Source: an uncultured Spirochaetaceae bacterium | Lineage (GTDB): Bacteria; Spirochaetota; Spirochaetia; Sphaerochaetales; Sphaerochaetaceae | Assembly: GCA_944389025.1 (NCBI GenBank) | Contig: CALXKU010000002.1 | Location: 1-64,000 of the forward strand | Length of the DNA: 64,000 bases | Reading direction: 5' to 3' | Part shown: positions 6,912 to 47,731 of the stretch, in pieces | Position numbering within the stretch: position 1 is the first letter of the stretch | Layout of the letters: every line of letters begins with the position of its first letter | Program-made: the position numbers and the translations under genes | The notes under the pieces: generated by a model | Database searches by the model: none | What the model saw: only the letters and a program-made list of their open reading frames with translations | What the model was told of the DNA's origin: nothing

Positions 6912-8285
6912 ATGGAAACGGTTGTATCAATACCTAGACAGATACTAATACAGGCAATACTCATACTTTTAAATGCTTTTTTCGCATCTGCGGAGATTGC
7001 TGTAATTTCACTTAATCACAATAAACTGAAGAAGCAGGCAGAGGAAGGGGACAAGAAATCCGTGATTCTTCTTAAGATGGTCGAGAATCCATCAAACTTC
7101 CTCTCCACGATCCAGATCGGAATAACCCTCGCAGGATTCCTCGGTTCCGCTCTTGCCGCCGACACTCTTGCCGAGGAGCTTACAAAGGTGTTCATCTCAT
7201 GGGGTGCGACCATCCCTTATAACACTCTCAACACGATCTCGGTCTTCATAATCACGATCATCATATCGTTCTTCACTCTCATCTTCGGAGAGCTTGTTCC
7301 AAAGCGTATAGCACAGCAGAAGGCCGATATGGTAGCACGTTTCTGCTGCGGAGTGCTGAATGTGCTTGCAAAGATCATGCGCCCAGTCATCTGGCTTCTC
7401 TCATTCTGCACGAACACCGTTCTCAGGATTTTCCGTTTCAAAGCAAACGCTGAGGAGGAAACTGCAACAGAGGAGGATATCCGCCTGATGGTTGATGCCA
7501 GCGGCGAGTCGGGTTCTATCGAAGAGGATGAAAAGGAATGGATCCAGAATGTGTTCGATCTTAATGACACCCTAGTCTCGGAGATCATGACCCGCGCCAG
7601 CGACATATGGGCTGTACAGATCGGTATGAACAATGCCGAGATCCTGTCACTTATCAAGGAGAGCGGACGCTCAAGATTCCCTGTCTATGATGAGGACCTC
7701 AATGATATCAAGGGCATACTCAATGTAAGGGATTTCTTACTCTCCCTAACTGATGACAAGGTGAAGAAGGTCTCCGACCTCATGCGTCCTGCATACTTCG
7801 TACCTGACACGATAAGAGCCGACAAGCTTTTTTCAGACATGCAGAGCAAGAAGCAGCACATCGCAATCTGTGTTGATGAGTATGGACAGACAAGCGGGCT
7901 CATATCTCTTGAGGACCTTCTCGAAGAGGTCGTGGGCAACATCTATGACGAGTTCGACGAGCAGGAAGAGGAAGAGCTTGTAAAAGTTGACGATAACCTC
8001 TGGAAGGTATCGGGAACCCTTCCTGTCGAGGATCTGGAGGAAGCTCTGGACATGGACCTTCCGAATGAGGAGCTTGATTTCGATACGGTAGGCGGCATGA
8101 TATTCTCCTGCCTGAATGAGATTCCCAAAGACGGGACGGAGCTTGATGTGGAGGTTTTCGGACTAAAGATCCATGTCACGAAGATTGAAGACAAGAGAAT
8201 TGTTGAAGCTTATATCAGCAAGCTTGATCCTGAAGAGATAAAGAAAGAGGAAGAAAACAAGGAAAAAGAGAAGAAGGAAGACTGA
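6912..8285 (+). CDS. CorC/HlyC-family transmembrane CBS protein (DUF21)
   Basis: This inner-membrane protein belongs to the family linked to magnesium/cobalt efflux (CorC, CNNM relatives). It has 457 residues. An N-terminal DUF21 domain (about 1-180) with four hydrophobic segments contains the characteristic FGELVPKRIAQQ motif. Two cytoplasmic CBS repeats (about 205-330) follow, including IMTRASDIWAVQ and the DEYGQTSGLISLEDLLEE segment. A CorC_HlyC transporter-associated domain comes next, and a very acidic/lysine-rich tail (EEIKKEEENKEKEKKED) ends the protein. The ribosome binding site AGAGGAG is seven bases from the ATG. It stands alone and converges with the TetR gene, only three bases from its stop. 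Older hemolysin annotations of this family are not well founded; ion transport is the better reading. Confidence 0.92.
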   Translation: METVVSIPRQILIQAILILLNAFFASAEIAVISLNHNKLKKQAEEGDKKSVILLKMVENPSNFLSTIQIGITLAGFLGSALAADTLAEELTKVFISWGATIPYNTLNTISVFIITIIISFFTLIFGELVPKRIAQQKADMVARFCCGVLNVLAKIMRPVIWLLSFCTNTVLRIFRFKANAEEETATEEDIRLMVDASGESGSIEEDEKEWIQNVFDLNDTLVSEIMTRASDIWAVQIGMNNAEILSLIKESGRSRFPVYDEDLNDIKGILNVRDFLLSLTDDKVKKVSDLMRPAYFVPDTIRADKLFSDMQSKKQHIAICVDEYGQTSGLISLEDLLEEVVGNIYDEFDEQEEEELVKVDDNLWKVSGTLPVEDLEEALDMDLPNEELDFDTVGGMIFSCLNEIPKDGTELDVEVFGLKIHVTKIEDKRIVEAYISKLDPEEIKKEEENKEKEKKED

Positions 8286-45632: not shown

Positions 45633-46093
45633 GAATCGGATTCGGCTACGACAATCACAGACTCAAAGAAGGACGGAAGCTCATGCTCGGTGGCATTGAG
45701 ATCCCATCTCCTGCAGGAGAAGATGCGCATAGCGATGGTGATGTACTGATCCATGCGATAATAGACGCACTTCTCGGTGCCACCGCCAATGGGGACATAG
45801 GAAGGCATTTCCCACCAAGCGATGATAAGTACAAGGACATCTCCTCCACCCTCCTTCTAAAGGAGACAATGAAGATCACAAAAGCGGAAATAATCAATCT
45901 TGATACTACTATAATCCTTGAGAAAGTGAGACTGAAAGATCATATAGAGGCAATAAGAGAGAGCCTCTCCCTCTTACTCAATGTGGAGCTTTCGAGAATA
46001 TCGGTAAAAGCGAAGAGCCATGAGAAGATGGATGCCACAGGCCGGGGAGAGGCAATCGAGGCTTATGCCGTCGCTCTGCTTGCAAACGATTAA
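45629..46093 (+). CDS. ispF: 2-C-methyl-D-erythritol 2,4-cyclodiphosphate synthase
   Basis: Fifth step of the MEP pathway, forming the cyclodiphosphate with release of CMP. 154 residues, standard. Metal-binding Asp8 and His10 in GFGYDNHRL, and the HSDGDVLIHAIIDALLGA segment with His of the third ligand; DIGRHFPPSD and KAKSHEKMDATGRGEAIEAYAVALL complete the family. ATGA-type overlap with ispD. Confidence 0.96.
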   Translation: MRIGFGYDNHRLKEGRKLMLGGIEIPSPAGEDAHSDGDVLIHAIIDALLGATANGDIGRHFPPSDDKYKDISSTLLLKETMKITKAEIINLDTTIILEKVRLKDHIEAIRESLSLLLNVELSRISVKAKSHEKMDATGRGEAIEAYAVALLAND

Positions 46094-46099
46094 TCACAC

Positions 46100-46128
46100 T
46101 TTACAAAAGCTCACATTTTCTCTATAAA
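46100..46128 (+). promoter_or_regulatory. tRNA-Val promoter
   Basis: TTTACA (46100-46105), 17-nt spacer, TATAAA (46123-46128), ten bases before the mature tRNA. Confidence 0.6.
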
Positions 46129-46138
46129 GTAAAGAAGC

Positions 46139-46210
46139 GGACATGTAGCTCAGCGGGAGAGCACTTCCTTCACACGGAAGGGGCGGTGGGTCCGACCCCC
46201 ACCATGTCCA
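46139..46210 (+). tRNA. tRNA-Val (anticodon CAC) with C55
   Basis: Cloverleaf: acceptor GGACATG/CATGTCC, discriminator A, D-arm GCTC/GAGC, anticodon loop TTCACAC (CAC), T-stem GTGGG/CCCAC. The T-loop reads TCCGACC, so position 55 is C, where nearly all elongator tRNAs have U (pseudouridine). CCA is not encoded. Confidence 0.92.
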
Positions 46211-46282
46211 TATCATCTTTTTTTTCCAAAGCAATACTGATTAATCTTACAGCCTCATCCGATATCTGATAGTAGAAATTCT

Positions 46283-46313
46283 TTGACTTACCCCCCCCCC
46301 AATAATCTATTAT
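46283..46313 (+). promoter_or_regulatory. lipoprotein promoter with poly-C tract in the spacer
   Basis: TTGACT (46283-46288) and TATTAT (46308-46313) enclose a spacer that contains ten consecutive C residues (46291-46300). The current spacer is 19 nt, two more than the optimum, so strand slippage by one or two Cs would change promoter strength. Inferred phase-variable promoter. Confidence 0.6.
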
Positions 46314-46327
46314 TGAGCTAAAGGGAC

Positions 46328-47731
46328 ATGAAAACTATGAAAAAATTATCCACACTTCTAGCCGTATCTTTTCTTCTGATTGCCATATTCACATCCTGTG
46401 AATCAGGTATCCCAAAAGATTATGTCATGCCAGTATTCACGAAAGCCATGAGCTCGTCAAACTCAAGAGGGCTTATGGAGATGCCAACATGGGATGAAAA
46501 TGAATGGAGATCTACAGGAGTAATGCAATCTCTTCCCGTAATGATCGGACTTGAGGAAGTGAAGAAGAATAATTTCGGAGAGGTTATAGAGGATGCGGAA
46601 AGGCAAGGTGTATTTAAAGTCCTTGGATTCGACTTACTTGCAGATACAAAAGCATGGAGAGAGAATGATGATGGCTTTTATGTAAAATACGATATCCTTT
46701 ACGATGGCAACAGCATAGGTTTCGTCCAGTATTATTACAACTCTGCTGAGAAAACCTTTTCCTATAGACAAATGGTTCTATGCACATTACGATTCGGGCA
46801 GGAAGATATACAGGAACATACAGCGGATATACAGACATCACTGCTTTCCCTTGAATACATGGATATTCCGGTACGTAACCTCAATCAGCTAGGAAGATTC
46901 TCTTTCGGGCAACTCGATGAAGACGGTGCTCCGGAAAGAAATGCCTTCGCAGACAGAATCTCCTTTAATGATGACGGTACATTTAAATTCGTAAGGACTT
47001 ACATTTCAGGAACAAGCAACAAGAAGCTCTTTTCATCCATATTCCGCCCTGATATGACATATGGAACAGAAGATTTTAACAATGATGATATCACAAAGGC
47101 CATAAACGAACTCGGGAACAGCAACAACAATGGAATAATCGACAAAATAAGCGAGGCGGAAGATGCGACTTTGGGATTCATCTATAGCATAATTGGAGAG
47201 TTTTACGCAAATGCGAACGGTATAAAAAATGGCGACAGCGGAACTCTCGGTTTCTCTTCTTACGCCTCTTATAAAGATTTCAAAGCGGCCACACTGGATG
47301 ATGTTGACATACGGGGAGGCCATGAACCGATAAGGAAAAACAGCAACTCGTATGATGGTATGGCAATGAATCCGGTAGCATATAGCTGGAGCGATGGAAT
47401 TGCCGCATCTGCGACGATTTTAAACGAACTGTATGGTAGTGGCAGCACTCAGGGAGTTTTCCTTGATATCACATTAGAGAACTTCGAAAAGACAGGCTTT
47501 AATGATTTTTACAGAATCAATGCATCAACGGATGAAGAGCTTAGAAAGGAATTAATCAGAGAACATCTCACAGCCTGCGGTCTTGGCAATGAGAATTTCA
47601 TAGCTAACTTCACGTACGCCGCGCTGGACGAGGAATATGGAAGAGCAACATACTGGCCATATGGAATAACAACGGAGAATCCGGAATCTTTTAAAGAGCA
47701 TTTTGAAAATCCGCCAAAGCAAAACAACTAG
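46328..47731 (+). CDS. putative phase-variable lipoprotein of unknown function
   Basis: 467 residues. A signal peptide ends in a spirochaete-type lipobox (IFTSC, Cys24), so it should be lipid-anchored, plausibly on the cell surface. The body is acidic and rich in Asn, Asp, Tyr and Phe, with segments such as MPTWDENEWRSTG, FGFDLLADTKAW-like strands and many short hydrophilic loops. I recognise no family or enzymatic motif. Start: the ATG at 46328 has AAGGG only two bases upstream; the ATG at 46337 is an alternative. The gene is monocistronic between tRNA-Val and a bidirectional terminator. Confidence 0.75.
   Translation: MKTMKKLSTLLAVSFLLIAIFTSCESGIPKDYVMPVFTKAMSSSNSRGLMEMPTWDENEWRSTGVMQSLPVMIGLEEVKKNNFGEVIEDAERQGVFKVLGFDLLADTKAWRENDDGFYVKYDILYDGNSIGFVQYYYNSAEKTFSYRQMVLCTLRFGQEDIQEHTADIQTSLLSLEYMDIPVRNLNQLGRFSFGQLDEDGAPERNAFADRISFNDDGTFKFVRTYISGTSNKKLFSSIFRPDMTYGTEDFNNDDITKAINELGNSNNNGIIDKISEAEDATLGFIYSIIGEFYANANGIKNGDSGTLGFSSYASYKDFKAATLDDVDIRGGHEPIRKNSNSYDGMAMNPVAYSWSDGIAASATILNELYGSGSTQGVFLDITLENFEKTGFNDFYRINASTDEELRKELIREHLTACGLGNENFIANFTYAALDEEYGRATYWPYGITTENPESFKEHFENPPKQNN

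Follow-up and report, generated by a model that had tools for sequence, protein, structure and literature searches.

Homopolymeric tracts that act as translational switches occur in Campylobacter, Helicobacter and Neisseria. Among spirochaetes, the most familiar example of switching by poly-G/C promoters is that of Treponema pallidum, which causes syphilis. In this organism the OmpW-like gene tp0126 carries a poly-G tract between the -35 and -10 elements, for which a distance of 17 nt is optimal, and tprE/G/J/L are likewise preceded by poly-G promoters (PMC7864442). The length of the tprL run varies in vivo, with most runs having about 9 residues, and reporter activity is higher with 8 Gs than with 10 (PMC7864442). 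In Neisseria meningitidis, the poly-C tract of opc encompasses the -35 sequence (PMC7864442).

The DNA considered here, referred to as the window, is a stretch of 64,000 nt (64 kb) assigned to Candidatus Ornithospirochaeta. Relatives of the ispF encoded in the neighbourhood of the locus under study belong to Candidatus Ornithospirochaeta and other uncultured Spirochaetales and come from gut samples. Upstream of a gene for a predicted lipoprotein, the window contains a run of ten Cs that, with a probability of roughly 0.78, forms part of the spacer of a phase-variable (contingency) promoter; slippage of the run, its effect on expression and the surface exposure of the product are predictions for this locus. 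The elements involved are the following.

TTTACA 46100-46105, 17 nt, TATAAA 46123-46128, + strand: promoter-like pair of the tRNA-Val gene, taken as local 17-nt reference
46139-46210, + strand: tRNA-Val (CAC), upstream neighbour (ARAGORN)
46283-46288, + strand: -35 element TTGACT, 5/6 to TTGACA (direct reading)
46289-46307, + strand: spacer TA + ten Cs + AATAATC, 19 nt (counted)
46291-46300, + strand: homopolymer of ten Cs (C10) inside the 19-nt spacer, proposed slipped-strand switch
46308-46313, + strand: -10 element TATTAT, 5/6 to TATAAT
46321-46326, + strand: Shine-Dalgarno-like AAGGGA (sequence)
46337-47731, + strand: predicted lipoprotein of 464 aa, from the likelier start; alternative ATG at 46328 (46328-47731, 467 aa)

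Based on pair scoring, TTGACT-19-TATTAT is the top-scoring promoter pair between the tRNA-Val and the lipoprotein gene, with 10/12 matches; the pair was absent from the list produced by a local promoter scan restricted to spacers of 16-18 nt. The initial annotation had described TTGACT, a 19-nt spacer with ten Cs and TATTAT, and direct reading and counting agreed with it to the base. It had also placed the -10 element 14 nt before the ATG of a 467-residue open reading frame. Both figures are right when counted from the ATG at 46328, and the start itself has to be revised: AAGGGA lies 1 nt from this codon and 10 nt from the in-frame ATG at 46337 and, owing to the better distance, the latter (464 aa) is the likelier start.

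The C10 run is pure and its length is above the threshold of about 7 residues for slippage. Its end is separated by 27 nt from the earliest possible ATG, no listed ORF of at least 80 aa covers it and, being upstream of the start codon, it cannot shift the reading frame; a translational switch at the window locus was rejected on account of this position outside the frame. The run starts 2 nt past the end of TTGACT, leaving the -35 hexamer intact and outside it, and the -10 element lies beyond it, so that any change in its length alters the spacing of the boxes directly. In the mechanism proposed, slipped-strand mispairing at replication would add or drop Cs, and each C gained or lost would shift the -35/-10 distance by one base. 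Sigma-70-type recognition would be weak with ten Cs (19 nt), intermediate with nine and strong with eight (17 nt), and the population would then mix cells that make much and cells that make little of the exported, probably surface-facing lipoprotein.

Two other modes of promoter control can be weighed against this anatomy. Control of the Opc type, by which the C run would alter the presentation of the -35 region or of a regulator site and not the spacing, would be in line with a run that begins so close to the -35, a feature found again in C-oriented promoters elsewhere in the genus (TTGACTA-C9); it is judged highly improbable because the run leaves TTGACT untouched on one side and is followed by the -10 on the other, unlike the situation in opc (PMC7864442). 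The opc arrangement in the proper sense, with the run overlapping or replacing the -35, was discarded in view of the 2 nt that separate the run from TTGACT. The occurrence of both C- and G-oriented tract promoters in the genus might also suggest an invertible promoter (inverton) operating instead of slippage, and this explanation was rejected as scarcely credible, since no inverted repeats of length at least 10 were found within 45900-46700.

The N-terminus of the 464-aa protein, MKKLSTLLAVSFLLIAIFTSC, has the features of a typical lipoprotein signal peptide with the lipobox FTSC, which points to a product that is probably exported and perhaps faces the cell surface. Searches of Pfam and NCBIfam with the lipoprotein matched no family. 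Its AlphaFold model reached moderate confidence (pLDDT 63.5, pTM 0.73) and a structure search with this model against the PDB gave no match better than E 1; for these reasons no molecular function is claimed for the protein.

Taken by itself the C10 run is mildly unusual, and its existence alone is weak evidence. It is indeed the sole C run of such length in the window, as had been noted at the outset, since no other C or G run exceeds 6 residues. A C/G run of at least 10 arose in 7 of 300 simulated 64-kb windows (Markov models of orders 1-5). Pattern searches of the whole genome, a draft of 39 contigs, detected five C/G runs of at least 9, where about 7 are predicted from composition alone by our own arithmetic, meaning that the window genome is not enriched in the number of runs. 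Given that rarity is a weak criterion, the argument rests on position and comparison: what exceeds chance is the placement of the run between putative promoter boxes of a predicted lipoprotein gene together with the recurrence of this placement across the genus. The same counts (runs not above composition, 7/300 simulated windows) and the draft condition of the assembly would be compatible with a C10 that arose by chance near a gene start and has no function, or with an error in the metagenome-assembly consensus. This explanation is considered very unlikely; both boxes match at 5/6 and stand at the right distances with a lipoprotein gene directly after them, the layout is found again across the genus, where the reversed control of the G form gave no match, and an assembled length off by one or two bases would leave the switch in place.

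Relatives share the gene order malQ - carD-like - ispD - ispF - tRNA-Val - [lipoprotein] - amino-acid ABC transporter, the bracketed gene excepted. No gene is present between tRNA-Val and the transporter in L053 and L055. In the sister species represented by L054 the same site contains, in the same orientation, TTGACATGAATA-C9-ATTAACATTTATGCGTTAAGGGAGATG, a TTGACA-C9 promoter, and the gene found there encodes an unrelated exported protein, for which a match to DUF1207 was obtained at sub-threshold level only. With this site empty in L053 and L055 and occupied by a different gene in L054, the tRNA-Val site is evidently variable, and it again bears a poly-C promoter in a second species.

The comparison of related genomes, proposed in the initial annotation, spoke in its favour both through this poly-C promoter, found at the corresponding site of the sister species, and through homologues of the lipoprotein with tracts at other positions. 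A direct look-up of the lipoprotein among the genome contigs returned no relative; relatives emerged only from whole-genome searches, and a profile search, fragments included, detected homologues in 12 of 48 genomes of the genus, with identities of 22-54%. The tract is located in the promoter in G002 (G9-TATAAT) and G007 (TTGACA-18-TATCTT) and in the reading frame in G017, and G018 has a degenerate copy. The closest homologue, encoded in G068 (L241; 54% over 444 aa), contains eight Gs right after the lipobox, and its frame reads 463-464 aa with 7 or 10 Gs and 24 aa with 8 Gs; the family-search row for L241, whose coordinates are approximate, was left out. No tract of at least 7 residues was found beside the homologous genes of G064, G063, G013 and G015. 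That slippery runs were placed repeatedly and independently on a single family speaks for selection favouring variable expression of the lipoprotein.

C/G runs of at least 9 are present in 48/48 genomes of the genus, often 10-20 of them. From 120 stretches fetched around such runs, 137 tracts were sampled, and the consensus of their flanks, read on the G strand, consists of TTGACA at a distance of about 10-16 nt upstream, ACC abutting the run on that side, the G run, TANNNT immediately after it, a Shine-Dalgarno sequence and a start codon. A strict promoter test (TTG-type -35 and G run directly before TANNNT) was passed by 60 of the 137 sampled tracts of at least 9 residues vs 0.56% of random positions. 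Among ORFs of at least 150 aa, a lipobox was found in 48 of the 77 located just downstream of a tract vs 21 of the 206 other ORFs of the same stretches (Fisher p 4e-18). The pattern TTGAC-N8-ACC-G5+, which imposes no length bias above 5 Gs, occurred at 92 places among the matches listed, in 25/48 genomes, and at none in the reversed control. The lengths of the pure tracts (n=88) peak at 9 residues (7: 2 tracts; 8: 11; 9: 54; 10: 13; 11: 5; 12: 3); TANNNT follows directly in 82/88, and 4 of the 92 tracts are interrupted. Furthermore, near-identical promoters of the genus (one genome per species, outside the window locus) differ by 1-3 Gs, as exemplified by L116 with G11 vs L147 with G9 (95.8% identical over 312 nt) and L145 with G12 vs L148 with G9 (97.5% over 203 nt). 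The existence of poly-G/C lipoprotein promoters across the genus and their peaked and variable tract lengths support the phase-variable reading advanced in the initial annotation.

These data also bear on the possibility that the promoter is constitutive or factor-regulated and the length of the C run static or irrelevant, for example if an activator compensates for the 19-nt spacer. A spacer of 19 nt is the commonest among the assembled promoters of the genus (30 of the 60 promoter-type tracts; 54/88 with G9) and may simply be tolerated, and a CRP homologue also acts on the tpr promoters of T. pallidum (PMC7864442). Nevertheless, pure tracts of 7-12 residues with few interruptions and length differences between near-identical promoters fit instability better, and the in-frame tracts of the homologues make sense only as frame switching. 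A static promoter is for these reasons regarded as unlikely, and the phase-variable spacer continues to be preferred.

The window promoter, with C on the coding strand and the run adjoining the -35, represents an orientation that is rarer in the genus than the G-oriented one. TTGAC-N0-6-C9 was detected in 9 genomes of the genus, a count of TTGAC..C9 that is not above that of the reversed control, in which 15 matches come from one genome. The C form is therefore supported by gene context and not by number: a predicted lipoprotein lies downstream in 7 of the 10 distinct C-oriented places read, the window included. Several of the C-oriented promoters of other species have the -10 at 19-20 nt.

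Other tracts of the genus lie outside promoters. In L037, L044, L185, L186, L187, L241 and others, poly-G is found inside the lipoprotein signal-peptide region, in several cases assembled out of frame, and translational switching of lipoproteins thus seems to be common in the genus as well. In non-promoter tracts, TA follows the G run in 44/64, coding sequence included, and AC/ACC often precedes it, a pattern that promoter function does not explain. The end of an element (..CATTTCATGTCTACCTTCAGGGGGTTAGTTCAATAC) halts exactly at G9, after which the sequences diverge, at four sites (C3:67, C6:81 and C29:12444 of G061 and C36:10126 of G064, corresponding to L099, L104, L115 and L195) that adjoin the apparent start of a transposase OrfA, and it may be that an insertion sequence targets poly-G runs. 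Contig ends near tracts were considered as a sign of mixed lengths and dropped, since many coincide with repeated promoters or with the end of an insertion sequence.

In the taxonomic class as a whole, TTGAC-N5-16-G9-TA is present in 51/297 genomes and 18/112 genera, with almost no matches in the reversed control, and many of the G9 promoters in the stretches read from other genera again precede predicted lipoproteins. In G221 and G215, from another spirochaete genus (L247-L260), the spacer with G9 measures about 15-16 nt to TACAAT-like boxes, less than the 19 nt seen in Ornithospirochaeta, so that in these genomes the strong state would be reached by lengthening the run. Altogether, it is reasonably probable that the lipoproteins of Ornithospirochaeta and of some related spirochaete genera are subject to a contingency system that spans the lineage and is built on a promoter module of standard form (TTGACA, 6 to 10 nt that often end in ACC, G7-12, TANNNT). 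Each genome would then hold many independently slipping promoters, the same lipoprotein families would in the course of evolution pass from one type of control to another (promoter, signal-peptide or tract-free), and the window locus would be a C-oriented member of the system. No description of tracts of this kind in Ornithospirochaeta was found in the open-licence papers searched; the genus-wide lipoprotein set appears to be unreported in them, the mechanism itself being already known.

A search of the window genome for further poly-C or poly-G lipoprotein promoters, also suggested by the earlier reading, yielded at least three genes with upstream poly-G. On contig C20, a G9 precedes the gene of a lipoprotein of 986 aa that contains Big_2 and List_Bact repeats, and G8 runs after TTGACA precede two more lipoproteins at C3:1232 and C15:51634, the latter with a spacer of 18 to CATACT. 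On contig C8 (L010:4329-4338), a G10 at aa 61 of 411, within the first quarter of an ORF for a glycosyltransferase, is a possible translational switch. In two related phage-like regions, on contigs C4 and C33, a gene for a cytosine methyltransferase has a C-terminal frame break at G9/G10, and runs of eight Cs coincide with a frame break in the gene of a second methyltransferase.

L009:4150-4158 and 7318-7325: runs of 8-10 in methyltransferase genes (C4 and C33)
L012:510-519 and 1943-1950: runs of 8-10 in methyltransferase genes (C4 and C33)

Runs placed at frame breaks in two distinct DNA methyltransferase genes point to phase variation of phage methylation. The cytosine methyltransferase of C4 also holds an intein-like Hint domain. 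Lipoprotein, glycosyltransferase and methyltransferase genes, with which these runs are associated, are typical contingency-gene classes.

A standard layout in front of dozens of lipoproteins of uncultured gut spirochaetes suggests an old and general spirochaete strategy, with a role for switching beyond virulence, in gut life, where host immunity, phages or changes of niche may be involved. Since gut metagenome reads already exist, mixtures of tract lengths are open to direct, culture-free measurement.

Among systems studied by experiment, T. pallidum tp0126 comes closest. Together with tprE/G/J/L it shares with the window locus the spirochaete host, a promoter homopolymer of about 7-12 residues and an association, predicted in the case of the window, with genes of exported or outer-membrane proteins. 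The window differs from T. pallidum in that C is on the coding strand just after the -35, the product is a predicted lipoprotein without known family and the promoter is one predicted from sequence; Ornithospirochaeta, moreover, has many lipoprotein promoters of near-identical layout. Regarding the Neisseria genes Opc and PorA, which the initial annotation had cited as precedents for a variable spacer, porA holds as the best parallel, because the poly-C of opc overlaps the -35 region. N. meningitidis porA, in which changes of spacing set the level of transcription as is proposed for the window, resembles the latter in having a homopolymer between -35 and -10, and differs in belonging to another phylum, in its poly-G, in being a single porin gene and in having been tested experimentally, whereas the window locus has been read from its sequence. 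With opc the window has in common a coding-strand poly-C close to the -35 region; the opc run spans the -35, whereas that of the window is separate from an intact -35. Homopolymer switches of translation would depend on the same slippage process; such a switch operates in L241, the homologue nearest to the lipoprotein, and possibly in the glycosyltransferase and phage methyltransferase genes of the window genome; the tract of the window differs from them in lying upstream of the start codon.
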